From assembly GCA_913061235.1 (NCBI GenBank), contig CAJXTB010000024.1:1-64000 (forward strand): a stretch of 64,000 nucleotides of DNA, in the 5' to 3' direction. This DNA comes from an uncultured Pseudomonadota bacterium (GTDB taxonomy: Bacteria > Myxococcota_A > UBA796 > GCA-2862545). Below, in pieces: positions 2,419 through 16,663 of this stretch. Position 1 is the first letter of the stretch. Each line of letters begins with the position of its first letter. The notes beneath the pieces are model-generated. The model did no database searches and had not been told where the DNA came from. It saw only the letters and a program-made list of their open reading frames with translations. The translations under genes and the position numbers were made by a program.

Positions 2419-2900
2419 TGCCTTGCCTTGGAAATGTTTCCGGTCTGCTGTGTCCGGGCCGGGTGCGGAGCTGCTCGCACAAGTCGGGTGCGTCTGGACG
2501 GAGAATTCCGCCCAGACGCCAGATTGGCCGTGTCCCTGTCGTGGAAAACTCGGCTCAATCCACCCCGCGGATTGCGGAGCCGTGACTCGTATGTGCGTGT
2601 GCGACGCCTTCTGGGAGCCGCGTGATGCGGCATCCACTGCGTGCGTTGGCGTCGTCTTGTGCGGGCCTGTTCGGTGTTCCAGGAACGCAGAGGCATCCTG
2701 GATACGGAACTGTTCATCCTCGTTCGAGGAGTGGAGCCCATGAGTGTGTCCCACCGGCTGTGGTGGACGGGCCCCGGGGCGACCCGAGACAAGTCGTACC
2801 CATGATGAGCGCCGACCCAGAGCGTTGCGGTGCCTGACAGATGGTGAAGGAACCGGAACGGCCACCCAGCCTGTAGGAGCTGCAGCTGGACGGTGTGGTC
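2419..2900. promoter_or_regulatory. 482-bp divergent intergenic region without a gene
   Basis: This lies between the minus-strand HTH gene and a plus-strand gene at 2901, so it should contain both promoters. Frames that stay open here have compositions typical of antisense or random reading and no ribosome sites I trust. The one clear structure is a 30-bp near-perfect palindrome at 2490-2519. Confidence 0.5.
2490..2519. promoter_or_regulatory. 30-bp near-perfect palindrome (candidate operator)
   Basis: Arms GCGTCTGG (2490-2497) and CCAGACGC (2512-2519) pair perfectly; after one mismatch, CGGA (2499-2502) pairs with TCCG (2507-2510) around a GAAT centre. There is no T-run on either side, so it is not a typical terminator. 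Its place between two divergent transcription units fits an operator for a dimeric regulator, possibly the adjacent HTH protein. Confidence 0.5.
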
Positions 2901-3131
2901 ATGCGTACCGAGGAGCTCCGTGCTGGTGAACCTCTGCCGGTCGAGCCGGGACCGATTGGCCTTTGGCACGTCAATCCGTCGACGCTTCTGTGTACCATTG
3001 CAGACGAACAAAACCCTTGCGCGCCCTGGGTTACACGCCACTTGGTAGAAAGGGGCGTCCTCACACGCCGACCGGTGCTCCCGTGGTTGTACCAAATCAC
3101 GAGAGCTGAACCTCAATTCCAGGAAACCTGA
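2901..3131 (+). CDS. Hypothetical protein (76 aa)
   Basis: No family recognised. A compact soluble sequence with ILLE-type spacing (STLLCTIADE, RHLVERGVLTRRP) that could be a small helical or winged-helix domain, since the segment VTRHLVERGVLTRRP resembles a recognition helix and wing. The ATG at 2901 is preferred over the GTG at 2895 because GGACGGTG lies upstream at a usual distance. It ends one base before the next start (TGA, A, ATG), so the two genes are almost certainly co-transcribed. Confidence 0.5.
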   Translation: MRTEELRAGEPLPVEPGPIGLWHVNPSTLLCTIADEQNPCAPWVTRHLVERGVLTRRPVLPWLYQITRAEPQFQET

Positions 3132-3132
3132 A

Positions 3133-3444
3133 ATGAAATCGAAGTCCACCCCGAAAACGGGGACCCGTCGGCCTGCAGGACAGGACGAAAGCAGCAGTGC
3201 GAATCCGCTGACCCAGATTCCAAAGGGAAATATCGGCTTCCGGAGTGTTGGCAACATCCTGGCGATGCTCCGGGAAATGCCGCCCTCTGTGATGGCTCCA
3301 TGGCTAGATGCTGGCGCTCGTATGACCTGGGATGACACGTTGCGGCTCGCACTCTTCGATGCGGATGGGAACGAGCAGACATTGTCGACGGAGATGACTC
3401 CGGAGTTCATAAAACTCATTGAAGACCATGAGCCTGGGCCCTGA
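3133..3444 (+). CDS. Hypothetical protein (103 aa)
   Basis: No family recognised. The first 30 residues are basic and low-complexity (MKSKSTPKTGTRRPAG), then comes an acidic, helix-forming C-terminal half rich in Met, Leu and Asp (MTWDDTLRLALFDADGNEQ). It follows the 76-aa gene after a one-base gap and converges on the minus-strand gene ending at 3497, with 52 bp between them and no clear terminator hairpin. Confidence 0.5.
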   Translation: MKSKSTPKTGTRRPAGQDESSSANPLTQIPKGNIGFRSVGNILAMLREMPPSVMAPWLDAGARMTWDDTLRLALFDADGNEQTLSTEMTPEFIKLIEDHEPGP

Positions 3445-3496
3445 TTCTGCGCTGGTTGCCTGCTGCACCGGCGCGGGTAGTGGCAGTCAGGACGAC

Positions 3497-4354
3497 TCAT
3501 GCCTCGGCCCACTCTGGATTGCTTATCGCCCAGGGACAGTTCACATAATTGAACACAGCTACGGCAACGGTGGCCGGCTTGGGCGGTCTGGCCCACCCAA
3601 GTAAGCAGCCCTGTCCTTCGAGTGGAAAGTCCCAGAACGTCACAATGATGGGCTCGGTGACGTCCTTCGGTAGCCGCACGGAGAGCGGCCTACGAGCTTC
3701 GGTCATGGTTGCCACCGCCCCGCCTCCTTGCAGGTCCACCCACAACTGCAGCACAGTGTTGGACTTCTTCGGACGGCACCGCAGACGTAGCGTGTGCCCG
3801 TTGTGCTCAAAGATACTTATTATTTTTAAGATGAGGTCGGTGGTCCACTCCGAGACCTCTTCGGGACTTTCGATGGTTAGCTTCTCGATGCGCACGTAGC
3901 CGTAGTGTTTCTTCGTTTCTGGACAGACATAAGTTTCCATCGATAGACTCTCAAAGTCCTTCATGCTGAAATCAATGTCGTCTTCCGATGGGATTGAGAT
4001 GTCTGCCATCCCTGCACCTTCCTGAGAGCCAAAGCCAATCGCAGGACGCAGAACGCGACCCCGCGCCGTCTGAAACAGGTCCGTGTGGCCTGGGGGCTGG
4101 ATGTGGACGGAATCGCCCACCTCGCAACAATCGCCGAGGCTGCTAGCCACATGGACTCGGATGCTCTCCGAACGATGGCCACCTTGGCCTTCGGCTGCGC
4201 GAATGCCGGCCAGAAGACCGCTTGAAGTCTCCGACGCGTCATACTTCAGGGCACAAACCGACCCAAAGGAAGGCTCGACCGGCGTAGTTTGCAATACTTG
4301 TATCGTCAGCCGCGTATTGGCATCGGAGGCTTGGCTATGTGGGGTGAATGTCAT
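3497..4354 (-). CDS. Hypothetical protein coupled to an HTH regulator (285 aa)
   Basis: No family recognised. The sequence looks like a soluble beta-rich protein: the C-terminal half alternates strands (HTLRLRCRPKK, VLQLWVDLQGG, RPLSVRLPK, EPIIVTFWDFP). Two cysteines sit near residues 76-77. The ATG at 4354 overlaps the stop of the upstream HTH gene as ATGA, so regulator and partner are made together. This repeats the architecture at 2.1-2.4 kb (HTH gene then ATGA-coupled partner). A toxin-antitoxin or repressor-antirepressor pair is possible but nothing in the sequence proves either. Confidence 0.5.
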   Translation of the reverse strand: MTFTPHSQASDANTRLTIQVLQTTPVEPSFGSVCALKYDASETSSGLLAGIRAAEGQGGHRSESIRVHVASSLGDCCEVGDSVHIQPPGHTDLFQTARGRVLRPAIGFGSQEGAGMADISIPSEDDIDFSMKDFESLSMETYVCPETKKHYGYVRIEKLTIESPEEVSEWTTDLILKIISIFEHNGHTLRLRCRPKKSNTVLQLWVDLQGGGAVATMTEARRPLSVRLPKDVTEPIIVTFWDFPLEGQGCLLGWARPPKPATVAVAVFNYVNCPWAISNPEWAEA

Positions 4355-4593
4355 GTGCCCGTCGCCGCGGGTCCGCGCGGTAACTTCACAGCTTTCACGA
4401 GTTCAACCTCGTCCAAATCGAACAAGTCAATCAATCTATTAACAACATGACGGGAGATGTCGTTTTGCCCGTTTTCCCAGGCGAGCACAGTGTTGTACGA
4501 CACGCCCAGTTTGTCGGCCAACGCCATCCTAGAGAGACTGTGTTGTCCCCGAAGTTGTTGGAGCCACTGGCCGATGGTTCTGATGCTACACAT
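4351..4593 (-). CDS. XRE-family helix-turn-helix repressor (80 aa)
   Basis: A compact Cro/C1-type HTH protein; MALADKLGVSYNTVLAWENG (about residues 23-42) is the DNA-binding signature. The ATG at 4593 lies inside an inverted repeat (4585-4603), so this protein or its divergent partner probably binds over its own start and autoregulates. No Shine-Dalgarno precedes the start, so the message may be leaderless. It is divergent from another XRE gene at 4678, as in phage C1/Cro-type switches. Confidence 0.75.
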   Translation of the reverse strand: MCSIRTIGQWLQQLRGQHSLSRMALADKLGVSYNTVLAWENGQNDISRHVVNRLIDLFDLDEVELVKAVKLPRGPAATGT

Positions 4594-4603
4594 GAAACAT
4601 GTA
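4585..4603. promoter_or_regulatory. Candidate operator O1
   Basis: Contains a perfect inverted repeat ACATG-AAA-CATGT. The 19 bases match 5186-5204 at 17 positions (GCTACACAT-n-AAACATGT). It overlaps the start codon of the minus-strand XRE gene and lies between two divergent XRE genes. Confidence 0.6.
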
Positions 4604-4677
4604 TACCCCGGAACGATGAACGGGTCCACACGGAGCATGTGTTGCGATGCGCAAAACCGCGCGCCAAGTGTTTGTAT

Positions 4678-5037
4678 ATGCAATCCTATTCCGAACTGTT
4701 GGCGCTTCTTGTGGACCTGAGAAAGGCCAGTGGAGACACCCAAGCCGCTCTTGCTCCAAAGCTTGGCGTGGGCCCCAGCACAGTTGGTAACTGGGAATCG
4801 CGGAGGGCAAAGGTGCCGTTTGACACTGCCGTCGCATGGATGGATTTGTATGGTCATGAGGTACGGGCAATGCCGAGCGCTTTAGGAGCGGTCCTTTTTG
4901 GGGAAAGGAATGACGATGCCGCGGCCACGTTGATCAGGGTTGCCAACCTCCTCGCCACGCTCGACGAGAGCGCGTTGCTTGACGTTGAGGCCATTGCAGT
5001 TCGCCTCGCGCCCCGTGATGCACGGAAGCGCGCTTAG
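4678..5037 (+). CDS. XRE-family helix-turn-helix regulator (119 aa)
   Basis: Residues about 6-60 form an HTH domain (TQAALAPKLGVGPSTVGNWE), followed by a helical C-terminal half (ATLIRVANLLATLDESALLDVEAIAVRLA) that could dimerise. The ATG at 4678 starts exactly at the domain; the frame is open further upstream but that part overlaps the divergent gene. No ribosome site is visible, so it may be leaderless. With the 80-aa XRE protein it forms a divergent switch; the operon starting at 5213 lies downstream and carries a copy of the shared operator in front of it. Confidence 0.75.
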   Translation: MQSYSELLALLVDLRKASGDTQAALAPKLGVGPSTVGNWESRRAKVPFDTAVAWMDLYGHEVRAMPSALGAVLFGERNDDAAATLIRVANLLATLDESALLDVEAIAVRLAPRDARKRA

Positions 5038-5150
5038 CGACAGCTTCAAAATCAGCCGCTCTAGGCTTAAGGTATCCAGGCCTGTGAGGAGGATGTAGCC
5101 ATCTGAGAGCAGGCCGCGACGGTATGCGTCCGAACTCAATATGCTGCTAT

Positions 5151-5165
5151 ACACATGAATTGTGT
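5151..5165. promoter_or_regulatory. Inverted repeat ACACA-n5-TGTGT
   Basis: A perfect 5-bp inverted repeat with a 5-base spacer, 48 bp upstream of the 55-aa gene and 35 bp upstream of operator O2. Its half-site ACACATGAA resembles part of O1, so it may be a weaker site for the same regulator. Confidence 0.35.
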
Positions 5166-5185
5166 GGACGGTATTCGCAACGCCA

Positions 5186-5204
5186 GCTACACATTAAACA
5201 TGTG
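5186..5204. promoter_or_regulatory. Candidate operator O2 before the early operon
   Basis: This sequence matches operator O1 (4585-4603) at 17 of 19 positions. It ends within the GTGGAGG ribosome site of the gene at 5213, so bound repressor would block the start of the whole operon. Two near-identical sites, one at the regulator pair and one at the operon head, is the expected layout of a lysis/lysogeny-type control circuit. Confidence 0.6.
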
Positions 5205-5212
5205 GAGGCGAG

Positions 5213-5380
5213 ATGGATACACACGCACCGACAAACCCGTATAAAGCTGGCTTCGCTGACATCGTCGTCTGCCCGCTGTTTGTGCTTCTTTGGATGTGGG
5301 CGTTCACCTTTGACGTTGGTTCTCCGATGTCTGAGTCTGCCATTGCCTCACCAGTCGTTGATGTGGCAGGCTCACCATGA
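5213..5380 (+). CDS. Small single-pass membrane protein, first gene of the operon (55 aa)
   Basis: A short open frame with a strong ribosome site, GGAGG at 5203-5207 five bases before the ATG. The protein has a polar N-terminus, one transmembrane stretch (ADIVVCPLFVLLWMWAFTF, about residues 15-33) and a short polar tail. Its stop overlaps the next start as ATGA (5377-5380), like nearly every junction in this operon, which supports it being real. Function unknown; small membrane proteins at this place in phages can act in host exclusion or lysis, but there is no specific evidence. Confidence 0.7.
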   Translation: MDTHAPTNPYKAGFADIVVCPLFVLLWMWAFTFDVGSPMSESAIASPVVDVAGSP

Positions 5381-5580
5381 GCCCCGTGGACATCAGTGTC
5401 ACGCTGCCCCCAGATGTTGCTGACATTGTGGGAAAAGGTATCAACCAGGGCGGCGATGAGGACATCGCCTTCGCACTACGGCTGCTAGGTTTCCGGTCGA
5501 AGGCGCGACGTGCTGGTGACCTCGACACCGTGCGTCAGATTGAGCGCGACTTGGTCAGGGCGTTCGCGGTGGATGCGTGA
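5377..5580 (+). CDS. Hypothetical protein (67 aa)
   Basis: A small, largely helical protein: VTLPPDVADIVGKGINQGGDEDIAFALRLLGFRSKARRAGDLDTV. The first half resembles the short ribbon-helix type N-termini of small phage regulators, but I cannot assign a family. It overlaps the genes on both sides (ATGA before, TGATG after), so it is translated as part of the operon. Confidence 0.6.
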   Translation: MSPVDISVTLPPDVADIVGKGINQGGDEDIAFALRLLGFRSKARRAGDLDTVRQIERDLVRAFAVDA

Positions 5581-5942
5581 TGGCCTCATTTCACGCTCCG
5601 ACGCTCATCTGGGCCTTGGACTTCGCGCACACCTTAGTGTCGCGGGTTTATGAATCCGGCTTGCCACTGGTCATCTCGACTCAAGCTGTAGATGCACTGC
5701 CCGTCATCACCTTCCGTTTGACGACTGGAACGCTGCCCCTTGGGGCCTACAACCTCGTTCGCGTCGTCTTCCAATCTGGCGGTGCCGAGCTGAAGATTGT
5801 GACCTGCGCGAATGAAGATGTTGTACGTACCTACGGGCCGGCCACCCTCGACAAAGACAGTGGCGTCATCGCGGCCAATCATCTGTGGGCGGACCTACTA
5901 CACGGCCTGACGGCGTACATGAGCATCCGGGTGCCGTCATGA
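5580..5942 (+). CDS. Hypothetical protein (120 aa), operon of unknowns
   Basis: No family recognised. Pattern: an N-terminal helix (LIWALDFAHTLVSRVYESG), then several beta strands (ALPVITFRLTTG, NLVRVVFQSGGAELKIVTCA) and a C-terminal helix. This helix-then-sheet layout recurs in the next three genes. The ATG at 5580 shares a base with the preceding stop (TGATG); a GTG at 5577 is the alternative. Confidence 0.6.
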   Translation: MASFHAPTLIWALDFAHTLVSRVYESGLPLVISTQAVDALPVITFRLTTGTLPLGAYNLVRVVFQSGGAELKIVTCANEDVVRTYGPATLDKDSGVIAANHLWADLLHGLTAYMSIRVPS

Positions 5943-6307
5943 ACTGGCTGGACACCAATTGGCAGGCCGAGTTCGTGTACGGGCTGTGCGAGCTGCTGGA
6001 CCGTTGCCGGCTTCCGGCCAAGCTCGTCCACATTGAAGTCCAGCCCGCCTTTGTGCTGCGCCTGACGCCCTCGGAGGCTGGGCTGATGCCATTCGCACCA
6101 AGACCGTCGTGGATGGTTCAGCTCACGTTCGTCGGTGGCAAGTGCAGTGTCCTCGTCAGCCGGACGGATGACGCGGCAGAAGCGAAGGTGGTTCTGGTGA
6201 ACGGTACCGCCCAGGCGACTGTCCTCGGTGTCTGGGATGGCGCGCTTCATGCTGCCCTCGCGCAAGTCCAAAGTGCCGCCAACTTCATTGATGTGGAGGT
6301 GGCATGA
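5939..6307 (+). CDS. Hypothetical protein (122 aa), operon of unknowns
   Basis: No family recognised. N-terminal helix with aromatic residues (WQAEFVYGLCELLDRC), then strands beginning HIEVQPAFVLRLTP and MVQLTFVGGKCSVLV, and a C-terminal helix. The IEVQP strand resembles VEVQPS in the protein at 6699. The ATG at 5939 overlaps the previous stop as ATGA. Confidence 0.6.
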   Translation: MNWLDTNWQAEFVYGLCELLDRCRLPAKLVHIEVQPAFVLRLTPSEAGLMPFAPRPSWMVQLTFVGGKCSVLVSRTDDAAEAKVVLVNGTAQATVLGVWDGALHAALAQVQSAANFIDVEVA

Positions 6308-6702
6308 ACCGACAACCTCCCGAGCCGTTTGTTCTGACTCCGGACTTCTCCATCACGGCCGAGTGGCGAGGTTCGTTTACCCGCTCGCTCATCGCATTCG
6401 TTGCGCCGCTGAGTGGGGAGTTTGTCGTCCGGTCGGAGCACGACAGGCCCGCCGACCCGGCTGAGTGCATCACTTCCATCGGCTGCGTTTCGGCGAGATT
6501 CCTACAACTTGAATTGTACGTGACCTCTGTGGACGCTGGCCAGGCCGTGCTCTCAACCTACCTAGGCTGGTCGGGGAAGACCGGACTCGTTGCTGTTCAT
6601 TCCCAGGAGCTGCCCACTGAGCCCGAGGAGGCGGCGGAGGACTGGCTCGGAGCTGTGGGCGGCGATTGGTTGGACTTCCTTGATGCGGGAGTCCGGTCAT
6701 GA
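6304..6702 (+). CDS. Hypothetical protein (132 aa), operon of unknowns
   Basis: No family recognised. Beta-rich core (SLIAFVAPLSGEFVVRSE, FLQLELYVTSVD) and an acidic C-terminal tail (ELPTEPEEAAEDWLGAVGGDW). Both ends overlap neighbours as ATGA, so its translation is coupled. Acidic, small and soluble: it could bind a host protein, but no evidence says which. Confidence 0.6.
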   Translation: MNRQPPEPFVLTPDFSITAEWRGSFTRSLIAFVAPLSGEFVVRSEHDRPADPAECITSIGCVSARFLQLELYVTSVDAGQAVLSTYLGWSGKTGLVAVHSQELPTEPEEAAEDWLGAVGGDWLDFLDAGVRS

Positions 6703-7145
6703 GCGTTGATCTCGCCCTCCGATGGGGACAGGACCGCGTGTGGTGGGAGGCGTTCGCCGTAGAGCTGCAGGCAGACTGCTGGGACGTCGAAGTGCAGCCC
6801 AGCGTCGTTGATGACGAGTACGAAGTTGTCCTTGTGCTTGGCCACGTTCATGCCGTGTTTAGTGCCTCCATGCACGTCGACCGACTGTGTGTCGCTGTAC
6901 AAGTCGTAGGAATGGATGAAACCCTGGACTTTGAACCCTTGGAGTGGTTCAAGCCAACGGATCTATTCCGGGACAGCCCGCCGCCTGCCAGTTGCCTTGA
7001 GCGTCCAAGTCCGGACGCTGCAACCAGCCGGTTCCGGCAGACCTATCAGAACTGCATCGTCGACCTCTCGACCGCCGTTGAGCGTCTTGTTCAGGGCGAT
7101 GTCAACGTGCTCCCAGCATTTACGGAGGGGCGTAATGATGCCTAA
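6699..7145 (+). CDS. Hypothetical protein (148 aa), operon of unknowns
   Basis: No family recognised. N-terminal helix (VWWEAFAVELQADCW) followed by strands VEVQPSVVDDEYEVVLVLG and LCVAVQVVG, then a longer polar tail. The first 70 residues follow the same order as the 122-aa protein at 5939, with a shared VEVQP/IEVQP strand, so the two may be distant paralogues. The start at 6699 overlaps the previous stop as ATGA. Confidence 0.6.
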   Translation: MSVDLALRWGQDRVWWEAFAVELQADCWDVEVQPSVVDDEYEVVLVLGHVHAVFSASMHVDRLCVAVQVVGMDETLDFEPLEWFKPTDLFRDSPPPASCLERPSPDAATSRFRQTYQNCIVDLSTAVERLVQGDVNVLPAFTEGRNDA

Positions 7146-7452
7146 TCCGAGTATTTTGCGCCAACTGCGTTGGTTCAGCGATGAACAACACGTAGAACAG
7201 CCGAACCGTGATGTAGCCGTCACCTTCCGGCACGCCGCTGAGGCATTGGTGGAGAGCGCTCACGAGACTTCTCCAGAGCTGCTGCGTGCTCTTGAGTTGC
7301 TCGTCACCGCCCACGACGCCGCACAGCGTGTGGCTACGCTTTGTCATGAAGACAAGGTCCGCGAGGACATGAAGCACCTCGTTGAGGAGCCTGAAAGGGC
7401 CGGAACGATTGCAACCGCTCCATCAAACAACGCATCTCGGAGACTCTCATGA
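7135..7452 (+). CDS. Hypothetical helical protein (105 aa)
   Basis: No family recognised. Almost entirely helical: TFRHAAEALVESAHETSPELLRALELLVTAHDAAQRVATLCHED. Two adjacent ATGs (7135 and 7138) overlap the end of the upstream gene by 11 or 8 bp; GGAGGGG at 7125-7131 is too close to be ideal for the first, so the second may be used. Ends in an ATGA overlap with the next gene. Confidence 0.55.
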   Translation: MMPNPSILRQLRWFSDEQHVEQPNRDVAVTFRHAAEALVESAHETSPELLRALELLVTAHDAAQRVATLCHEDKVREDMKHLVEEPERAGTIATAPSNNASRRLS

Positions 7453-7691
7453 GTGGAAACGTATCCACATGTCGGAGCCCAGTAGACACGGACCGTGCAC
7501 CGGCCAAGGATGAGTCAATGCTTCTGTTCTTGGCCAATGCCAACGAGCTGGTGGTGTCGGATGTTCCGCGGCTGACATCCGAACGGGACCACCTTCGTTC
7601 CTGTATCAAGGCGGGTTGGCTGGTCCGAAAGGGGGCTCGCTACGTCCTCACCAGTGCGGGCGCGAAGGCGCGGATGCGAGGTTCGGTATGA
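7449..7691 (+). CDS. Small winged-helix-like protein (80 aa)
   Basis: Residues about 24-78 (MLLFLANANELVVSDVPRLT, then LRSCIKAGWLVRKGARYVLT) have the spacing of a winged helix: helix, helix, then a two-strand wing that ends YVLTSAGAKAR. This is typical of small phage or plasmid DNA-binding proteins, and a similar YxLTxxG wing is common in MarR-like folds. Inference from pattern only. ATGA overlaps on both sides. Confidence 0.5.
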   Translation: MSGNVSTCRSPVDTDRAPAKDESMLLFLANANELVVSDVPRLTSERDHLRSCIKAGWLVRKGARYVLTSAGAKARMRGSV

Positions 7692-8047
7692 CCGTCAGCT
7701 CTCCCCCGTGCCCGAAGTGTCACACCCCAGTTCCGTCCACCGAGGTCGGCTGCATGATGTGCAAGGGCCTGGAAACGTCGCCGGCGGCCGTACTCGAGCA
7801 AGCCGACCAGCCAGCCCACGGTGGTCACTGCACCGACTGCCACGTCACCGCCGTCGTGTCGGAAGAGTGGGGACGGTGTGCCGCTCACTTCGTTGTGAAC
7901 CCCGTTCGTTGCCGTGTTGACGTCTGGCTCGTCTGCCAGGACGGCACTGTTCGTTCGGTCCGACACAGTTCACAGCTCTGGGTGGACGCCGTGGACGCCC
8001 GTCTCTGTGGGCTCATGCTGGCCTTGCCTGACCGGAAGTGCGCATGA
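7688..8047 (+). CDS. Zinc-ribbon-like protein (119 aa)
   Basis: Two CxxC-type knuckles near the start (CPKCHTPVPSTEVGCMMCKG, residues about 8-27) look like a zinc ribbon, and CTDCH plus a later CAAH (about residues 48-70) form a second candidate metal site. The C-terminal part is a small beta domain. Role unknown. The start at 7688 overlaps the upstream stop as ATGA; the longer frame upstream has no coding character. It immediately precedes the DNA methylase gene with ATGA overlap. Confidence 0.55.
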   Translation: MTVSSPPCPKCHTPVPSTEVGCMMCKGLETSPAAVLEQADQPAHGGHCTDCHVTAVVSEEWGRCAAHFVVNPVRCRVDVWLVCQDGTVRSVRHSSQLWVDAVDARLCGLMLALPDRKCA

Positions 8048-9048
8048 GGCCTCTACTCAAATGGCCAGGTGGCAAAGCCAGGATGGCGCATGTGATTGCC
8101 GATGCCTTCGGAGACGACAAGCCAGAGGGATATGTCGAGCCGTTTGCCGGTGGACTCGCCGTCTTCTGGCACCTTCACGACACAACAGCTCTCCGCAGCT
8201 TGCGTCGTAGCCCCGTCCTGTCCGATGCATGCGGCAGCCTCATGGTCGCTTACCGTGCGCTGCAGCAGCGGCCTGAAGAGGTGTGCAACGCGCTGCAAGA
8301 ACTCACGAAGGGGCACAAGAAACCGCGGGAATGGACTCGCGACTACTATCGCCTTCGGAGCCAGTTCAATGCGTACCGCGCCATCGTGCTCAAGCCGGTA
8401 GCCGCAGGTGAGGGCCGGGACGTCCCAGTCGGAGATGAAGCCGTGAAGCATGCGGCGCTAATGCTCTGGATCAATCGGGCCTGCTTCAACGGACTGTGGC
8501 GGACCAACCGGAGTGGAGCGTTCAACGCTTCTGCGGGCTCGTACCAGACCGTTCGGCTCGACTACGACGCCATTCGCCGAGGTGGAAGCATTCTCGCCAA
8601 CTTCCGTGCACAGCTAGGCTGGTGCGACTGGCGTGTATCCATTCGGAACGCTGGCGAAGGCGACTGGCTCTTTGTCGATTCTCCGTACCTGCCCATGGAC
8701 CGTCAAGCGGACTCGTTCACCGGGTATTCGGCTATTCGGCCGTGGGGACACGATGAACACCGCGAGCTCGCGTTCCAGTGTTGCTTGGCGGCCCGCCGTG
8801 GTGCGGTCGTCGTGCTCACCAACCATGACGCGACCGCCACACATGAGATCTACGACCAGGTCAACGGGTGGGAGGTCTACGCGCGGCCCGAGGTGACCCG
8901 GACCATCAGCCAGTCCGCCAACCGGATGAGGGCGACCGAGGTCGTTCTGACTCTTCGGCCCCGGGACGTCGTGGTGCCGTCGAACCCCAACACACAGCTC
9001 TCAATGCTCGGTGACGCTCCCGTCGCCCTGGAGGACCTGCATGTCTGA
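8044..9048 (+). CDS. dam: DNA adenine methyltransferase, Dam/D12 class
   Basis: A 334-aa protein of the D12 class (N6-adenine, alpha order). Motif I region starts at the N-terminus with KWPGGKARM and continues as YVEPFAGGLAVFWHL (AdoMet binding). The catalytic motif IV is DSPY in FVDSPYLP, where most relatives have DPPY. A C-terminal motif VVVLTNHD fits motif VI. Target is probably a short site such as GATC by analogy with Dam, but specificity cannot be read from the sequence. The ATG at 8044 overlaps the previous stop as ATGA; GTG at 8038 is an alternative. No matching restriction endonuclease is adjacent, so it is likely an orphan phage-type methylase that protects or regulates the element's DNA. 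Confidence 0.85.
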   Translation: MRPLLKWPGGKARMAHVIADAFGDDKPEGYVEPFAGGLAVFWHLHDTTALRSLRRSPVLSDACGSLMVAYRALQQRPEEVCNALQELTKGHKKPREWTRDYYRLRSQFNAYRAIVLKPVAAGEGRDVPVGDEAVKHAALMLWINRACFNGLWRTNRSGAFNASAGSYQTVRLDYDAIRRGGSILANFRAQLGWCDWRVSIRNAGEGDWLFVDSPYLPMDRQADSFTGYSAIRPWGHDEHRELAFQCCLAARRGAVVVLTNHDATATHEIYDQVNGWEVYARPEVTRTISQSANRMRATEVVLTLRPRDVVVPSNPNTQLSMLGDAPVALEDLHV

Positions 9049-9505
9049 TGCACAGGCCATTGATGTCGCTTCACTGCAGAATGACCCCCTTGCCTGCAAG
9101 CTGCTCGCCATCATCGGGCGGTCGCCTGATGGGGTTCTGGACTCAGAGTTGGAGACCAGAGTCAAAGACCCACGGTTCCACGATGTACTGGACCGCCTGG
9201 CGTCGTCGGGACTGGTCACAACGGAGAGCGAGACCACTTCTACGCGTGACCGCCTACGACACCGGGTACCCGTCGCCGCTCTGCGGTTTCGGTTGGCACC
9301 TCCTGGATTCAAGCCGGACACTGCGCATGCCCACAACCCTGTTGGGGCAGCCCGTTCAGGCTCTGATTTGCAGGGGCTCTGGCGCGAACACACGAGGCTT
9401 CGTCGGCTTGCGCGGCAACACAATCGAAAGGCCACTCTTGTCCTAGGCGAGATTCGCTCGCTCTCCTGCAAGCTCGATGAGGAGTCGCCGCCATGCGAGT
9501 CCTAG
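9041..9505 (+). CDS. Hypothetical helical protein, possible winged helix (154 aa)
   Basis: No firm family. Residues about 18-75 (LLAIIGRSPDGVLDSELETR, then VLDRLASSGLVTTES) have the order of a winged helix. The C-terminal third is basic and coiled-coil-like (LWREHTRLRRLARQHNRKAT). The ATG at 9041 overlaps the dam stop by 8 bp and gives the domain a natural start; a longer frame upstream has no support. Confidence 0.5.
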   Translation: MSDAQAIDVASLQNDPLACKLLAIIGRSPDGVLDSELETRVKDPRFHDVLDRLASSGLVTTESETTSTRDRLRHRVPVAALRFRLAPPGFKPDTAHAHNPVGAARSGSDLQGLWREHTRLRRLARQHNRKATLVLGEIRSLSCKLDEESPPCES

Positions 9506-9867
9506 CCGCGCCACGCTCGCTCACCTTGCGTCGCGGCTCCAAGCCCGGCACTCGTCACCGGTGGTGGCTTGGTGGGCGCGAGATTCAAGAGAACGTGGAG
9601 CTTCTGGTCCAGATGGTCCAACAGTCCAGCTACGTCACCCGTCCTGGTTTCGGCCGGTATGTGTGTACCGAGGTCGACTGGTTGCCGGTCCGTGCCACCT
9701 TCCAAGACATCGAAGATGCCCCCGAGGTCTCGAAGGGCGCCGCAAAGGCAGATGGGCGTCTGTTGTGCCTCAAGCTTCCGTTCCGATGCGGCGGGACCGT
9801 CTTGGTCCCTGCACAGACGTCCATGCAGTTCGCGTGGCCCGGCCCTACAGCGACAAGGGCGGCGTGA
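9493..9867 (+). CDS. Hypothetical protein (124 aa)
   Basis: No family recognised. A basic N-terminus (LRRGSKPGTRHRWWLGGREI) is followed by a mixed alpha/beta region with two cysteines. It overlaps the previous gene by 13 bp and the exonuclease gene by one base (TGATG), consistent with the operon. The basic, Trp-rich start suggests nucleic acid contact, but that is a guess. Confidence 0.5.
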   Translation: MRVLAAPRSLTLRRGSKPGTRHRWWLGGREIQENVELLVQMVQQSSYVTRPGFGRYVCTEVDWLPVRATFQDIEDAPEVSKGAAKADGRLLCLKLPFRCGGTVLVPAQTSMQFAWPGPTATRAA

Positions 9868-10475
9868 TGGACCTTCCTGTCATCGTCATTGACACAGAGA
9901 CGACCGGTCTGCCAGAGCACCCCGATGCGGTCGCCATCGAGATTGCGCTGGTGCTTCTCATGCCGGATGGCTCCAAGCCGTTCGCACTGTCTTCGTTGCT
10001 CAGGCCGGAAGACCCCAACGAGATTGTCTGGACCCACACTCATGTTCGCGAGACCATGACCATCCACGGCATCACGCCGGCGCATGTTGCACTCGCTCCT
10101 GTGGCCAAGCGCGTCGATGACCTGCTCGACTACACCCGTCGATATGCTGTGGGCTGCTACGGCCAACAGTGGCCCTGCGAAGACTTGGCTTGGACGAGCT
10201 GGCGTACCGAGTTCGAAGCCGAGATGTTCCGGCGGTCGCTTCCGAAGGTTGCTGGTTGGCAGACCGCTCCGTGCATTTGGGAACTCGCCCGCGAGTCGTT
10301 CCGTCCGGAAGACTTGGCGAAGCCTCACTATCCATCCATCAAGACGACAGCGCATGCGCTTGGCCTTCAGGCAGACCGAAACACGCACCGTGCGTTGCCA
10401 GATGCTCTGCTCGCGGCTGATGTCCTCTACGCCCTCATCCATCGAGACTCAACCCAACCATTGGAGGTGAGCTGA
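9867..10475 (+). CDS. DnaQ-like 3'-5' exonuclease (DEDDh)
   Basis: A 202-aa protein of the RNase T/DnaQ superfamily. Exo I is VIVIDTETTGLPEH (residues about 5-18) with the metal-binding D and E; Exo II falls in the middle with the D of VDDLLDYTRRYAVG; Exo III has H and D in NTHRALPDALLAADVL, the DEDDh arrangement. It would remove nucleotides from 3' ends of DNA or RNA. Stand-alone copies like this occur in phages and islands as repair or host-DNA-degrading nucleases. The ATG at 9867 shares its first base with the upstream stop. A near-perfect ribosome-site sequence (GGAGGTGA, 10463-10470) lies within its last codons. Confidence 0.85.
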   Translation: MDLPVIVIDTETTGLPEHPDAVAIEIALVLLMPDGSKPFALSSLLRPEDPNEIVWTHTHVRETMTIHGITPAHVALAPVAKRVDDLLDYTRRYAVGCYGQQWPCEDLAWTSWRTEFEAEMFRRSLPKVAGWQTAPCIWELARESFRPEDLAKPHYPSIKTTAHALGLQADRNTHRALPDALLAADVLYALIHRDSTQPLEVS

Positions 10476-10567
10476 TGTCTCTGTCACGCCGAACTGTCCG
10501 CCGTGTCCGAAACTACCTCGTACGTGAAGGTGCCATTTCCACGGTGCCCCGGCTTTGGAACACGTCT

Positions 10568-11020
10568 TTACTCGTCGCCGGACCGCTGTTGCATGCGCGT
10601 TCCGTCCAAGAACCAGACCCGGTCGTCGTGGAGCTGGAAGAGCCGGTCGAGGTAGTCGATGCTCCACCAGTCAAGGGTGGCTCGGCGTTGGGGTTTTGCG
10701 ACCTTGGACAGCACGTTCAGCAGTCCAACAACGTCGGGAGTCCCACCGGGAGCTCGCCGGACCAGGTCCACCAAGCCGATGAGCAGCTCGTCCGTTCCAT
10801 CTTGCTCCTCGCGCTTGTCTTCGGGGAGTCCGGACTCCCGCAGGTAGTGCCCGACGCCCAGAAGCAGCAGCTCGTAAGGCTCCGCTGCCGTCTGCTTACC
10901 GACCCTGAAGTCGGAGGGGGCGTCGGCAGCATCGAGTTCGGCGACTGCGCGTGCAGCGTGGCCAGCGCCTTGAAGCAAGACCTCCATCGTCATCCGCTTG
11001 CGAAAGGGGCTCCCGTTCAT
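10568..11020 (-). CDS. Hypothetical protein on the opposite strand (150 aa)
   Basis: No family recognised. A soluble helical protein with a regular heptad-like core (AEPYELLLLGVGHYLRESGL, LLIGLVDLVRR, VVGLLNVLSK) and a conserved-looking C-terminal WWSIDYLDRLFQL. It starts at 11020 behind a good ribosome site (GAGGAGAAG, six bases before ATG) and its codon choice matches its neighbours, so I prefer it over the 225-codon frame on the plus strand that covers the same bases. It is transcribed against the long plus-strand operon and divergently from the ParB-like gene. Confidence 0.65.
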   Translation of the reverse strand: MNGSPFRKRMTMEVLLQGAGHAARAVAELDAADAPSDFRVGKQTAAEPYELLLLGVGHYLRESGLPEDKREEQDGTDELLIGLVDLVRRAPGGTPDVVGLLNVLSKVAKPQRRATLDWWSIDYLDRLFQLHDDRVWFLDGTRMQQRSGDE

Positions 11021-11034
11021 GACTTCTCCTCACA

Positions 11035-11083
11035 GACGGGGGCTTCGTCTCCTCGGTGTGTCCGCACCGAGGAGACACCCGTC
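11035..11083. promoter_or_regulatory. Long inverted repeat in the divergent gap before the ParB-like gene
   Basis: A perfect 12-bp stem GTCTCCTCGGTG (11047-11058) / CACCGAGGAGAC (11065-11076) with a 6-base loop, extended outward by GACGGG (11035-11040) / CCCGTC (11078-11083). There is no T-run, and it sits between two divergent starts (11020 minus, 11142 plus), so a terminator is unlikely. An operator or a centromere-like (parS) site for the ParB-like protein would fit. Confidence 0.55.
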
Positions 11084-11141
11084 TCTGGGGCCTCTCTAGC
11101 CGATTCAACCCCACCCAGTCTCAATCAACCGGAGCAAGACG

Positions 11142-12542
11142 ATGACCGCTAGATCTCCCCGTGAATTGGTCGCTCAGCGCCTCACACTCCCGGTCAAGTC
11201 CCTGACCTTCGACCGTGCTCTACAGTGTCGTGTGGAGATGGATGATGCCATCGTTGACGAGTACGCGGCCGCGATGAAGGACGGGGCCGTCTTCCCGGCC
11301 ATCGATGTGGTGGACGTAGACGGCAAGCGCTTTGTTGTGGATGGCTGGCACCGTGCCTACGCCACGAAGAAGGCAAAGCTCAAGCAGATCGAAGCAGTGG
11401 TGAAGAAGGGAACGCGCCGCGATGCCATCCTTCATGCGGTCCACGCGAACGGCGACCACGGTGTCCGTCGTTCACACGATGACAAGCGGAGGGCCGTCCG
11501 CACGCTGCTCATGGACCCAGAGTGGGCGAAGATGAGCAACCGGAACCTCGCAGGCCTTGGGCGAGTCAGTCATGCGTTCGTGGGCCTGGTGCGTAAGCAC
11601 TACCAGCTCGGCAGTGGGGAACTGCTCACCGAAGAGCGCATTGATGAGATTGACGGTGAACCACCCCAGGAGTGGTTGGACCTGTGTGCGGGCCTGCCCG
11701 AGTGGGACAAAGCGAATGTGCTGCGGCTCCGACAGTGCTTCAATTTGTCGGCGCTAGAGCTGGCTTTGCCGTACAACTACCGGTCGGAACACATGATTGC
11801 GGCGATTGGAATGCAGCTCACGCGAATCGCTGGTCGGTCTGGAGACCCGTGGCCGTGGCCCGCGGACAAGATGCCGCATCAGCGCGAAGTTCGTGTTCGG
11901 CACCTAGTGGACTCGTTGGACATGTCTGCAGCGCTTCAGTCGCCGGCGTGTCCGGAGCGAGTGGAGCTGTTCTTTGTCTGGGTCAAAACGAAGGGTCTGG
12001 AGAACCTGCAGGACCACAGCATCGACAAGCTACTCGAGGACTTTTCCGAATGGCCTGCGTTCGTCCGGATGCTCAAGCTTCGTCGCTCTCAGCTCAAAGC
12101 GGACCGGGAGGCTAAACCGCCCTCTGACTGGGACCAGGCCAAGGCAATCGAAGGCGAGCGGGATGCTACCCGCCAAGCGACAGCCATTCGGTCTGCCGAA
12201 ACGCAAGTGTTGAAGCATGTGCGAGCGAGAGGCTTGCAGTCTGCTTCTCGAAATGTGCTTCGAGAGGTCAACGGCGAAGCGGCCAACGCGGAGTGCTCCA
12301 ACGCTGCGTGTGACGGTTGGATGGTTTCCCAGGTGTACGGTGAGCCGCTGTGTTCGGTCTGCAACAAGTCGGCGTGCAGGACAGTTGAGCTTCATGATTG
12401 GGCGTTTGAATACGTTCAATCCCAAGTGCGGGCAGGTGTTGACCTGGTCATTGATGGCCGTGTGCTGTCGATGGAAACGTTGCCACTGCTACCGCAGAGC
12501 GAGACGTCTGTTGCCACCGAATCTGGAGTGGTCGCCAAGTGA
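11142..12542 (+). CDS. ParB/sulfiredoxin-fold DNA-binding protein
   Basis: A 466-aa protein with a ParB-type N-terminal domain. Residues about 10-95 hold the ParB/Srx fold, with FVVDGWHRAYATKKA matching the GxHR-type motif (here DGWHR) that binds nucleotide in this superfamily. A helical region follows (VRRSHDDKRRAVRTLLMD..., then NRNLAGLGRVSHAFVGLVRK), which resembles an HTH. Near the C-terminus, CSNAACDGW...CSVCNKSAC looks like a zinc site. Proteins like this in phages and islands act in partition or as DNA-binding nucleases. No parA is adjacent. Start ATG 11142 has GGAG seven bases upstream. Confidence 0.75.
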   Translation: MTARSPRELVAQRLTLPVKSLTFDRALQCRVEMDDAIVDEYAAAMKDGAVFPAIDVVDVDGKRFVVDGWHRAYATKKAKLKQIEAVVKKGTRRDAILHAVHANGDHGVRRSHDDKRRAVRTLLMDPEWAKMSNRNLAGLGRVSHAFVGLVRKHYQLGSGELLTEERIDEIDGEPPQEWLDLCAGLPEWDKANVLRLRQCFNLSALELALPYNYRSEHMIAAIGMQLTRIAGRSGDPWPWPADKMPHQREVRVRHLVDSLDMSAALQSPACPERVELFFVWVKTKGLENLQDHSIDKLLEDFSEWPAFVRMLKLRRSQLKADREAKPPSDWDQAKAIEGERDATRQATAIRSAETQVLKHVRARGLQSASRNVLREVNGEAANAECSNAACDGWMVSQVYGEPLCSVCNKSACRTVELHDWAFEYVQSQVRAGVDLVIDGRVLSMETLPLLPQSETSVATESGVVAK

Positions 12543-12581
12543 AGCCGGCTCGTGCCATGTCTAGAGTTGGCGAGCATCCAC

Positions 12582-13046
12582 ATGGGTGAGACCGGAAACG
12601 TGGTGCGGTTTCCTGGCGTGAAGGGGCGTTTGGCGTCTCCTGTGCGCTTCCGCGCCACCGATCAGGACATCCTCGCCTTGTTGGGCGGAACGCTGAGAAC
12701 ACTGCAACGTAGGGTGAAAGAGACCACCCACGCGAAGCTCGCCAGGCCGTGGCGGATGTACGGTGGCCGTCGCCGATGGAATTTGGCGGCACTCGATCAG
12801 TGGTTGGAGGACACAGAACAATGGCGAGCACAAGAACGTACACGACGAAAACGGGCGCGAAACGGTGGTCGGTCCGCTGGCGAGATCCAGACGGCGCACA
12901 GCGGGAAAGGCGAGGACTTCCCGACAAGAGGTCTGCCACAGCGCTCAAAAAAGACGTCGAGGCCGCAGTCGGGCAAGGCTTCAGATGGGAGCCGCGGGAT
13001 GCTCGACCGGTACCGACGCTCTGGGACCTCTCAGAAGACCTCCTGA
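12582..13046 (+). CDS. Excisionase-like HTH protein overlapping the integrase
   Basis: A 154-aa frame whose first 85 residues form a plausible MerR/excisionase-type HTH (RATDQDILALLGGTLRTLQR ... WNLAALDQWLEDTEQW), the class that directs excision with a tyrosine recombinase. From 12821 on, this frame overlaps the integrase gene out of frame for 226 bp, and residues beyond about 85 are basic and low-complexity (RTRRKRARNGGRS), as expected when another gene constrains the DNA. The ATG at 12582 is preferred; GTG 12552 and ATG 12557 are possible. Xis role is inferred from the HTH and the position before int. Confidence 0.55.
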   Translation: MGETGNVVRFPGVKGRLASPVRFRATDQDILALLGGTLRTLQRRVKETTHAKLARPWRMYGGRRRWNLAALDQWLEDTEQWRAQERTRRKRARNGGRSAGEIQTAHSGKGEDFPTRGLPQRSKKTSRPQSGKASDGSRGMLDRYRRSGTSQKTS

Positions 13047-14002
13047 TCGAGTGTCGCGTGCGTGGATTGCGGCCCCGAAGCATCGAACGAAAGGCCCAGT
13101 CCATTGGCCTATGGTTGCGCTGGCTGGAGGATTCGCTTGGACGAGCCCCCATCTGCGAAGATCTCGACCGAAAGATGCTCACCGCATTTGCTGTTTCTTT
13201 GGCCGATCCGGTCACGGGACGGCATCTACATGGCCGAGCTGCCAGTACGATCTATAAGCATGTCGCAGAGGTCGAACTGGCTTGGCGTTGGTTCTGGGAC
13301 CGCGCGGACGAGGAGAAGTATCCGTGTCCGCGCCCACGCACGATTGGGCTGCGAAATCCGCCGCCGGCGGAGCGGCCGTCGCCCAGTTGGTCGGACATGG
13401 ACGCCGTGTGTCTGGCCGCTGCCCGCATTCCGATTCGCTCCTCCTCGCTTCTTCGTTGTGGCTTGGACCGGCACCCGTTGCACTACATCGCCGTTACTAT
13501 GCGGTACACCGGACTTCGGGTTCAGCAGGTCATGGACCTCCGATGGTCCGACTTTGACCTGGAGCATTGCATCATGACCGTGCGCCCAGAGTTGGGAAAG
13601 AGCCAGCAAGAGCGCCGTGGCCGCGACGTTCCCCTGTCCGCGCATTTCGTTGCCGAGCTCAAGACCTGGCCACTCGCCAGCGAGTGGCTGGTTCCCACCT
13701 GGCAAGCGGGGAGCAAACCACGTGTGGTTCGTGCCCGCGACATGGTGAAGGCGTGGATTGCGGCTGGCATCGACGAAGCCAAGTGGAAGGGCCGCCCTGA
13801 TCACGCATTCCGAGCTGGCCTGCAGAGTGGCCTGAAGCGTTTGCGGGCTGACGATGAGGCCGTGAAGCAGCTGGTTGGACACTCACGCGGTGTCCGCGGG
13901 CGCTACGTAGATGCGCCTTCGTTGCCAATGCACGAAGCCGTAGGGCTGATTCCACCGCGTTTGACTGACTCAGTTATGCGTGAGACAGAGGCTGCAGCAT
14001 GA
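12821..14002 (+). CDS. int: Tyrosine recombinase / integrase
   Basis: A 393-aa phage-type integrase. Residues about 4-50 are an arm-binding domain (TYTTKTGAKRWSVRWRDPDG), about 80-190 the core-binding SAM-like domain, and about 215-370 the catalytic domain. Catalytic residues: Arg in RYTGLRVQQV, Lys in RPELGKSQ, the His-x-x-Arg of DHAFRAGL, the second His of LVGHSRG, and the nucleophile Tyr in RYVDA. It ends 71 bp from the 3' end of selC, so it most likely integrates and excises this element at that tRNA gene. Start ATG 12821 matches the arm-domain start. Confidence 0.9.
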   Translation: MASTRTYTTKTGAKRWSVRWRDPDGAQRERRGLPDKRSATALKKDVEAAVGQGFRWEPRDARPVPTLWDLSEDLLIECRVRGLRPRSIERKAQSIGLWLRWLEDSLGRAPICEDLDRKMLTAFAVSLADPVTGRHLHGRAASTIYKHVAEVELAWRWFWDRADEEKYPCPRPRTIGLRNPPPAERPSPSWSDMDAVCLAAARIPIRSSSLLRCGLDRHPLHYIAVTMRYTGLRVQQVMDLRWSDFDLEHCIMTVRPELGKSQQERRGRDVPLSAHFVAELKTWPLASEWLVPTWQAGSKPRVVRARDMVKAWIAAGIDEAKWKGRPDHAFRAGLQSGLKRLRADDEAVKQLVGHSRGVRGRYVDAPSLPMHEAVGLIPPRLTDSVMRETEAAA

Positions 14003-14023
14003 TGTGGGCACAGAGTGGGCACA
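14003..14023 (+). repeat. Tandem GTGGGCACA boxes next to the attachment site
   Basis: GTGGGCACA occurs at 14004-14012 and 14015-14023, 11 bp apart (one helical turn), directly after the integrase stop. The 13 bases CAGAGTGGGCACA (14011-14023) are repeated exactly at 1758-1770. Short phased repeats between int and the attachment core are typical places for arm-type integrase or excisionase binding sites; chance cannot be excluded. Confidence 0.4.
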
Positions 14024-14073
14024 AGACGATGGCGCAAAAATTAACAGAGCTTAAAGGCCTGCTATCGAATGGT

Positions 14074-14174
14074 TGGCGGCGGATGATGGGAGTCGAACCC
14101 ACCGGAGACCGCCTCTCGACGTCTCCCGACCAGTTTTGAAAACTGGGGCCGGCACCGGCCTGGCGACACCCGCC
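14074..14174 (-). tRNA. selC: tRNA-Sec (anticodon UCA)
   Basis: Selenocysteine tRNA. The anticodon stem CCAGT/ACTGG encloses loop TTTCAAA with anticodon UCA (14137-14139), which reads UGA. The acceptor stem is 8 bp (GGCGGGTG with CATCCGCC, one G-U pair) and the T stem 5 bp (GTGGG/CCCAT around TTCGACT), the 8/5 layout unique to bacterial tRNA-Sec. The long variable arm has a GGAGAC/GTCTCC stem. Discriminator G is followed by an encoded CCA. 101 nt including CCA. Its 3' end faces the integrase, and selC is a classic island insertion site, so the gene most likely doubles as the attachment site (the last bases of the tRNA would be the crossover core). Confidence 0.93.
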
Positions 14175-14191: not shown

Positions 14192-16663
14192 CTACTGCTC
14201 GTCGAGTTGGTACTGCTCGGTGACCAGGGCTTCGCTAGCTGTGATGTCCGCTTCGTTGAACAATACGGGCCGGAGTCGTTCTTCGGCGTAGATCTCGGAC
14301 TGGTCGGTAAAGTGAGGCGAGTCCGGGTCTTCGCTCTGGCTGTAGACCATGATGGCGCGGGCTTCAGGGCCGTTGTCACCAAACTGCATGGTCATGATCC
14401 AGCTATTACCGGAGTTGACGACGTAGCCTTCGTCTGTCAGGTCGGTGGTTCCGTTCAGGACGGTGCCGCGCTGCACATCAGGGAACAGCGTGGTGTCGCC
14501 CCCAGTGCTGTAGTCTGCGATGCTGATGACGCCGTCTTGGTACATGCCGCCCTGGGTGGGGATGTCGTTGTCTCCAATGCGGCGGAATTGGATGTCACCG
14601 AGAGCGTCGGTGGGGGTGATTCCGGCTTCGGTCAGACGGACGGCAGCGATAGCCAGGCTGTCGAGAACCTTGTCACGGCCTTCTGTCGGGGCTGGAGCCA
14701 GCCCGTTTGGCGTGTACATGGAATCTGTGGGGTCGAACTCGCCGGCAAACAGTGGGCCGGTATGGCGCAGGTCAAACCAGGTGTAGGCGCCGGCAGACAT
14801 CCACTCGCGCATGATGTGGGCACCCTGACTGTCCACGGCGTGACGCATGTCCCACGCGCCGAGTGCGGTACACCAGGGAGAAACGTCGATAGTGCTCTCA
14901 ACGCCATCGACGGTCACGGTGACGTCGGTGACGTCGGTGCAGCGTGTCACCACCTGGTCGCGCAGGTCTTCTGCGACGCTGCTACGAGCGGACAGGGTGG
15001 CCTGCTGCAGCTCATCCAGGGTAAACACGCCATCGTCACCGGCGGCAGAGTCCGGGCCGGACTCCAAGAAGAAGCGGTTGTTCATCTTGGTGCGTGGTGT
15101 GCGCGGAACACCGGTCTCGCCGTACATCCATGAGTAGCCAGTGAGGGGAGCCTGCGGGTTGGACATCCAATGGTTCTCGTTGGCATTGGTGACGAAATCG
15201 CGGCGGTCCAGCTGCGGTGCATCGTCGAACGGAACAACGCCTGGGCGCGGCGAGGCAGGGTCGTCTACCCAACGGAAGGTGTCGTTGTCACCCTCGAACA
15301 CGTACAGGCCTGCTTGCTCCCAGAACAGCTGCGCGAGAGGTTGTTCGACACGGTAGTCCAGCCAAGCTTGTTCGGCGGAGTCGGGCACGTTTGGGGTATT
15401 CGCAGAGTCGGTGTAGAAGGCGTTGCCCTGGTCGTCTGCTGCGAGGGTATGGACCCACGGAATTCCCATATGGTCGCGCTGAGCGGACTTAAACTCGTCC
15501 ATGGTGGTGGCATGGTTCATCTCAAACCAGCTGTCGTACAGCTCGATGTTGTTGATGTTGGCATCGCGGTAGCTAAAGCCGAGGATGGGCGTCCAGCCGA
15601 TGACCGGCGCGTTGAGCATGGGGCCGTACTCTGTGCGGTACATCGTTCTTGATTCTGGGGCCAAGCTGCCATCACCCTGAAGGACATCCACGGTGAAGGT
15701 ATTCGCTTCCATGGGGACGAATTGCCCACCCGACATGTATTCGGTTGGGTTGTCCGGGTTCAGTTCGTGCGCATAGAACGTAAAGCGCGGGTTTGTCGAG
15801 ACGGTATGGGTCCAGGCGATGTTCCTGTTGAAGCCGATGTTGACGACGGGAACACCAATGAGAGAGGCACCGTAGACGTCCAGTCCGTCCGGTCCCATCA
15901 TGTGGAACTCCCACCACTGGCGCTCACCCTGGGACGGGAAGTGAGTGTTCGATAGCAGCATGCCGCCATCTGTCGATGAGCGGTCAGCGCCGATTGCCCA
16001 GCCGTTGCTTCCCAGCTCCAAGTCTAGCTTGTTGAAGCGGTCAAGCTCGCTGATGTCAGGCGGTGCGCGTCGCGGACTCTGTGGCGCTGCGGGGGGCTGA
16101 GCAGTCGCGATGAAGTCGGTCAGTGCGTAGCCACTGCCGAGCAGGCCTAGGTGTAGATGGTAGGCCAGCAGGTCGATGTGGGTGATGGGCTGGACCCATT
16201 CGGCGTCCCGACAGGGCTCGGGGAGTTCGCTGGCGGGGGTGTCTGCGAGAAACTGGTTGTATCCCGCGGTGTACCCGATCAATACCTCTTGGATTTCTGG
16301 GCGAATGTCGAACCAGACTTCTTCGGCGGAAGCTTTGATACCCAACTGCAACCAAGCAAAGTCGCTGTCGAGGTTCGCATCAGCTGTGCCGGGACCAAAG
16401 TACTTGGAGCGCTGGCTCTGCGTCTTCACCAGCTGGTCTGCGAGAGTGCACACATGGTCACGGGAAAACGCACTGCCGAGACCGAAGCCCAGACTGCCGT
16501 AGTCGTCTGCTTGGATGTGTGGAATGCCGTAGTCGGTCCATCGAACGGTGGCGTCGTAGGGACCTACCTGCACGTCGTAGGGGTCGGGGCCTGGGTCGAC
16601 GTCCTCGACCTCGTCGGTTTTACAGCCGGTGAGAACCAACAGCAGCAGGCCAAACGCTTTCAT
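14192..16663 (-). CDS. Penicillin acylase family N-terminal-nucleophile hydrolase, lipoprotein
   Basis: An 823-aa member of the penicillin amidase family, which also includes acyl-homoserine-lactone acylases and cleaves amide bonds in acylated substrates. The N-terminus is a lipoprotein signal (MKAFGLLLLVLTGC, Cys14). The alpha segment covers about residues 30-218; the new N-terminus after self-cleavage would be Ser219 in LELGSNGWAIG, the family's nucleophile motif. Later motifs (SNTHFP, NIGFNRNIAWTHTVS) belong to the beta subunit. A lipidated form would be anchored at the envelope instead of free in the periplasm. I moved the start to ATG 16663 so that the signal begins the protein. The natural substrate cannot be told. 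It follows the amidohydrolase gene by 40 bp and ends 17 bp from selC. Confidence 0.85.
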   Translation of the reverse strand: MKAFGLLLLVLTGCKTDEVEDVDPGPDPYDVQVGPYDATVRWTDYGIPHIQADDYGSLGFGLGSAFSRDHVCTLADQLVKTQSQRSKYFGPGTADANLDSDFAWLQLGIKASAEEVWFDIRPEIQEVLIGYTAGYNQFLADTPASELPEPCRDAEWVQPITHIDLLAYHLHLGLLGSGYALTDFIATAQPPAAPQSPRRAPPDISELDRFNKLDLELGSNGWAIGADRSSTDGGMLLSNTHFPSQGERQWWEFHMMGPDGLDVYGASLIGVPVVNIGFNRNIAWTHTVSTNPRFTFYAHELNPDNPTEYMSGGQFVPMEANTFTVDVLQGDGSLAPESRTMYRTEYGPMLNAPVIGWTPILGFSYRDANINNIELYDSWFEMNHATTMDEFKSAQRDHMGIPWVHTLAADDQGNAFYTDSANTPNVPDSAEQAWLDYRVEQPLAQLFWEQAGLYVFEGDNDTFRWVDDPASPRPGVVPFDDAPQLDRRDFVTNANENHWMSNPQAPLTGYSWMYGETGVPRTPRTKMNNRFFLESGPDSAAGDDGVFTLDELQQATLSARSSVAEDLRDQVVTRCTDVTDVTVTVDGVESTIDVSPWCTALGAWDMRHAVDSQGAHIMREWMSAGAYTWFDLRHTGPLFAGEFDPTDSMYTPNGLAPAPTEGRDKVLDSLAIAAVRLTEAGITPTDALGDIQFRRIGDNDIPTQGGMYQDGVISIADYSTGGDTTLFPDVQRGTVLNGTTDLTDEGYVVNSGNSWIMTMQFGDNGPEARAIMVYSQSEDPDSPHFTDQSEIYAEERLRPVLFNEADITASEALVTEQYQLDEQ

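Follow-up and report, generated by a model that had tools for sequence, protein, structure and literature searches.

Islands in tRNA and tmRNA genes, as defined for the Islander collection, have an intact tRNA gene, a displaced 3' fragment of that gene, in the same orientation and outside any other tRNA or conserved protein domain, and a tyrosine integrase between the two, with both ends on one replicon and 2-200 kb apart (PMC4383910). For the islands in selC, the selenocysteine tRNA gene of E. coli, the displaced repeat of selC is reported as 24 bp (PMC6174562). The locus described here has all three of the Islander features, and differs from the single-replicon interval in that its ends lie on two contigs, C24 and C8, with at least 14.0 kb of the island on the first and 39.4 kb on the second. 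It is like the E. coli islands GIselC17584/1 and LEE in its insertion downstream of selC with a 24-bp direct repeat at the far end, and also in its integrase, its mosaic cargo and the splitting of its ends over contigs in a draft assembly (PMC6174562). It is unlike them in cargo and host, and while the E. coli selC islands often have a CP4-type integrase, PF00589 is the only Pfam match of the integrase here, and XerC-like scores are weak. A further feature of CP4-type integrases is an N-terminal PF13356 domain, and the integrase here is not of the CP4/P4 type by which enterobacterial selC pathogenicity islands are recognized. Mechanistically this is ordinary tRNA-gene integration of the site-specific kind, and selC is an established target for it in other bacteria; the integrase clade and the host lineage are new instances of it.

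Based on the data presented below, we put forward a model in which the window (the whole 64,000-nucleotide stretch that was analysed, from contig C24 of 93,632 bp in a genome of 7.18 Mb) contains one end of an integrative element, prophage-like and no shorter than 53 kb (the sum of the C24 and C8 parts), that probably entered the only selC of the host by site-specific insertion at its 3' end. The mapping of both junctions would extend precise selC integration from the enterobacteria to an environmental lineage with another integrase clade, and it shows how att cores and arm sites can serve to link two contigs in a draft genome.

selC, the adjoining integrase and the host selenocysteine system

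The features at the C24 junction are as follows.

14074..14174, minus strand: selC, tRNA-Sec (UCA), intact, with attB in its 3' end (ARAGORN tRNA-SeC (tca); Rfam RF01852)
14072..14095, minus strand: att core CGACTCCCATCATCCGCCGCCAAC, 24 bp (attL), with an exact second copy, attR, at C8:39410-39433, plus strand
14003..14022, minus strand: arm-type repeat pair GTGCCCACTCTGTGCCCACA with an 11-bp period, its only exact partner genome-wide being C8:39277-39296, plus strand
12821..14002, plus strand: tyrosine integrase, 393 aa from the ATG at 12821 (PF00589, E 1.7e-9; phrog_1, E 3e-24; alignment)
50..14071, no strand: island part on C24, which extends beyond the end of the contig and most simply resumes on C8:1-39409
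14192..16663, minus strand: penicillin amidase (PF01804), host flank upstream of selC

The sequence-only reading had described a tRNA with a UCA anticodon, 8/5 acceptor and T stems and a long variable arm, a description on which ARAGORN, RF01852 and direct reading agree. The gene scores 60.8 bits against RF01852 (E 6.9e-10; gathering cut-off 47 bits) over the full model, 1-91, and is the sole tRNA-Sec above that cut-off in the genome, the runner-up scoring 42.5 bits. Bacterial tRNA-Sec has an 8-bp acceptor stem and a 5-bp T stem; those of selC, read directly from the sequence, are GGCGGGUG/CAUCCGCC and GUGGG/CCCAU, and CCA is encoded in the gene, which folds alone at -50.4 kcal/mol (z -2.55 against shuffles). 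The integrase had been placed 71 bp from the tRNA 3' end, and with its stop at 14002 and the tRNA end at 14074 the spacing (14003-14073) is exactly that, the two 3' ends facing each other. A longer reading of the integrase starts at the GTG at 12749, and in the alignment the TGLR, HAFR, GH and Y motifs are conserved. On the host side, the penicillin amidase is followed by an amidohydrolase and a PaaA/C-like gene, and homologues of the latter two are found near selC in relatives.

It had also been predicted that the host encodes selA, selB and selD together with UGA-containing genes; the three sel genes, each scoring above its curated cut-off, and one UGA-containing gene were found.

C14:54366: selA (373 bits)
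C9:116594: selB (309 bits)
C1:370690: selD (196 bits)
C1:429991-430194: Rdx/SelW-like gene with one in-frame TGA in a CxxU motif (CVVU)

By its gene content the host is thus evidently a Sec user, and its retention of a complete-looking Sec system fits the rule that integration of this kind preserves the tRNA. A 140-nt stretch at the SelW-like gene has no special RNA stability (z -0.85). Formate dehydrogenase-type molybdopterin oxidoreductases were considered as selenoproteins and rejected, with none of the four PF00384 genes having an internal stop. The selD region (C1:370690-371535, L100) lies within a 720-aa open frame that is about twice the usual size and thus may encode a fusion protein.

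The displaced selC tail and the matched arm repeats

Base 1 of the window is the first base of contig C24, which bears out the earlier view that the left end of the island is missing, and since the window starts at a contig end the other end must be located elsewhere. The prediction for that end had been a duplicate of the selC 3' end. When the whole genome was searched with this region, a single further match came up, of 30 bases at 93% identity (C8:39410-39439), and this contains the expected copy, exact over 24 bp at C8:39410-39433, with matching arm sites nearby. In the core CGACTCCCATCATCCGCCGCCAAC, the 3' end of selC is followed by the two bases that come after its CCA. The copy on C8 is oriented as a displaced 3' fragment should be, is not inside any tRNA and gives no tRNA call, and falls in the space between two gene calls, of approximately C8:38134-38742 and C8:39818-40183. 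Reading selC 5' to 3' enters the island on C24, which runs down to base 1, and reading C8 from base 1 arrives at the displaced fragment in the same orientation and then at host-like genes, the first of which, named from sequence reading, are an RRM protein and an arginyltransferase-like gene.

Each core copy has an arm pair with the layout GTGCCCAC-N3-GTGCCCACA beside it. On the selC strand, GTGCCCACTCTGTGCCCACA comes directly after the integrase stop codon, just inside the C24 core, and GTGCCCACTATGTGCCCACA lies at C8:39277-39296, just inside the C8 core; the pairs are 49 bp (C24) and 113 bp (C8) from the cores, on opposite sides. The pattern GTGCCCACNNNGTGCCCACA has two perfect matches in 7.18 Mb and one match with a single mismatch, and the reversed control has 0. 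On a simple 4^24 estimate, a genome of this size should contain some 5e-8 exact second copies of a 24-mer, and this expectation together with the control of 0 for the arm pair rules out chance. The single-mismatch match to the arm-site pair lies at C44:7493-7512 (L137).

A lambda-type attP leaves, after integration, direct arm repeats on either side of the core. We therefore regard the arm repeats as candidate binding sites of the element's own integrase, and their pairing with both selC tails as the strongest evidence, on comparison of the sequences, for both ends belonging to one element. In the mechanism that we propose, attP would consist of a 24-bp copy of the selC tail between two arm sites of the GTGCCCAC-N3-GTGCCCACA type, to be bound by that integrase. 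Recombination would rebuild an intact selC at attL, on C24 beside the integrase gene, and the original selC 3' end would be pushed to the far end to become attR (C8:39410-39433). With the assembly broken inside the element, each end would have come to lie on a contig of its own. What is seen on C24 and on C8 would then form one continuous element, with both junctions presumably made by the C24 integrase.

The two contigs and the genes beyond attR

The contig starts of C24 and C8 share no 15-mers in a direct overlap comparison, and no contig joins them. It could be argued that they come from different organisms and were binned together, in an assembly that has 72 contigs, a contamination estimate of 2.08% and adapter remains at the C24 start: the stretch at window 1-49, GTCTCGTGGGCTCGGAGATGTGTATAAGAGACAG, ends in what we take to be a Nextera transposase adapter left in the assembly, so that this contig end is partly an artefact. 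Since the two contigs share an exact core and arm pair and have host-like flanks of similar GC (0.607 on C24, 0.591 on C8), and the genome has one tRNA-Sec, we consider such an assembly or binning artefact barely credible.

Further observations count against the single-element model. The GC contents of island and host do not differ (0.608 versus 0.607), and the genes to the right of attR are not beside selC in any relative examined. About 40 selC loci of relatives were compared in a search for an empty attB, but the relatives belong to other genera and the flanks are not syntenic; a conserved right flank (RRM, arginyltransferase) was looked for and not found near selC in any of them. The selC-like core on C8 could instead owe its place to a rearrangement of the chromosome or to the use of a secondary integration site, in which case the C8 flank would not be the original right-hand flank of selC, and the finding that in relatives the right-of-attR genes (arginyltransferase-like) and selC are on separate contigs is in keeping with this. 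Gene order around selC also varies among these other genera, however, and so the relatives speak neither for nor against the right flank. Moreover, a secondary site would not normally provide a perfect 24-bp selC tail, and we regard this explanation as very improbable.

The main rival to the model is tandem accretion, in which the C24 and C8 ends derive from two elements that both used selC: the selC-proximal element would have its integrase on C24, an older outer one would end at C8:39433, and the att site between them would be lost or unassembled. C8 is a mosaic with a second integrase (35-38% identity) and a nested satellite, so that the right end could stem from another round of integration. 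A metagenome-assembled genome (L115/L117) has two related integrases facing one selC-type core, and a remnant of a tRNA-Asn att site lies 158 bp inside attR. Yet the arm pair at the C8 core matches the C24 pair and nothing else in the genome, the C8 integrase has no 11-bp-spaced repeat of this kind at its end, and a whole-genome search found no third selC-tail copy in the assembly. On balance we consider accretion unlikely, if less so than the rearrangement, and the insertion of one element into selC remains our preferred explanation.

The stretch inside attR is itself worth describing. The 85 bp at C8:39168-39252 (L002:1259-1343) are 87% identical to a tRNA-Asn junction on contig C29, and from this similarity we take them to be what is left of an att site of the tRNA-Asn type at this end of the selC island. 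On C29, a distance of 9.7 kb separates the tRNA-Asn gene from a partial copy of it that includes its terminator (C29:55119-55203 and C29:64856-64896; L096, L097, L098). This locus is probably another tRNA-gene island; by reading, its cargo includes a Fur-family-like regulator, a COG0523-like GTPase and a TonB-receptor-like gene, and no integrase was seen in it.

Contents of the element and relatives of its integrase

The C24 part of the element carries, in addition to the integrase, the following genes.

406..1533, minus strand: candidate replication-initiation protein (phrog_270 and DnaA_N-like, weak)
2146..2418, minus strand: small HTH (Cro-like) regulator (PF01381 for the longer frame, 2146-2865)
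4447..5037, plus strand: HTH repressor-like protein (PF01381, PF13560), with a homologue in viral contig L120 (35% identity)
8092..9048, plus strand: Dam-type adenine methyltransferase (PF02086; TIGR00571 above cut-off)
9834..10475, plus strand: DnaQ/RNase T-type 3'-5' exonuclease (PF00929 and phrog_192, both for the longer frame)
11142..12542, plus strand: ParB-like protein, probable element gene (phrog_1033, E 8e-13; PF02195 weak)

The Cro-like regulator points away from the repressor-like gene. On the C8 side, the DNA inside attR (C8:1-39409) is of mobile type and encodes an SNF2 helicase fused to an N6-methylase, related to phage DarB-like proteins, as well as a GH46 protein, an endolysin-like gene, VapE-like and Abi_alpha proteins, resolvases, a polymorphic toxin module (PT-HINT/Ntox10), a long gene that sequence reading suggests to be Rhs-like and a small membrane protein that is holin-like by eye only. 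The stretch C8:22648-29616 (L014/L013) has an Rhs 3' region in two 879-bp copies (77% identical), between which lies a module with a GC content of 0.70. This module contains the second tyrosine integrase together with a serine recombinase and the VapE-like protein, and is a nested satellite inside the island. Two proteins at the start of C8 (C8:175-1509, L017), beta-rich by eye, are candidate structural proteins, possibly capsid-like, that match no protein family and have no credible counterpart in the PDB.

Among the element proteins scanned against PHROGs there were no terminase, capsid, portal or tail genes, the element being partly unassembled, and among those scanned against Pfam there were no relaxase or type IV secretion genes. 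As no virion, relaxase or type IV secretion gene was recognized in the scanned proteins, prophage-like is the best label for this mosaic island, but a provisional one. A tailed-phage contig, IMGVR_UViG_3300043405_000022 (L120), has an integrase (35%), an HTH repressor (35%) and an endolysin-like protein (28%) related to those of the element; it differs in having baseplate and tail genes, none of which were recognized in the scanned parts of the element. By uniting relatives of C24-side and C8-side genes, this contig would provide a modest independent link between the two. Three other C8 proteins gave no viral relatives.

For the integrase, tblastn against 50,697 phage records gave no match and a single-protein scan of genome-collection contigs gave no relatives; a profile scan of those contigs gave four loci. 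Other integrases of the clade were found in viral contigs, in which a scan for a degenerate tRNA-Sec tail found none. When about 40 selC loci from the order were compared, one (L070/L116) had a full same-clade integrase at the tRNA-Sec 3' end, one (L071) an integrase fragment, and one (L066) a more distant integrase, 1.36 kb away. The first of these, CAIQVJ010000117.1 (G026), comes from an order-level relative deposited as an uncultured proteobacterium, and is like the present locus in that its integrase (34-35% identity) faces the tRNA-Sec 3' end. The integrases of Umea1p3_bin-980 (L115/L117), of the same clade and at 34-35% identity, are likewise directed at a tRNA-Sec tail, of 20 bp. Both loci differ from this element in having other arm repeats and in forming a supported clade of their own (100/100). 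In Umea1p3_bin-980, the two related integrases face each other across the 20-bp selC tail, and the contigs with the L115 and L117 ends overlap by 141 bp.

Direct repeats spaced by 11 bp are present at or near the integrase stop in the same-clade loci L070, L114, L115, L119 and L121, with a different sequence in each. The integrase nearest by identity (43%) adjoins a tRNA-Leu gene (L114), and the integrase tree is compatible with targeting of tRNA-Sec having arisen once or more than once. We put forward, only as a tentative suggestion that may well not hold, that these elements are an undescribed provirus lineage of Sec-using environmental bacteria, as yet with no virion genes recognized, whose integrase clade repeatedly targets tRNA-Sec, has as its diagnostic mark arm repeats spaced by 11 bp on or close to the integrase stop, and shifts between tRNA-Sec, tRNA-Leu and perhaps tRNA-Asn. 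At the tRNA-Leu locus (L114:3520-5238), the integrase reading frame stays open across the tRNA-Leu gene (4953-5038).
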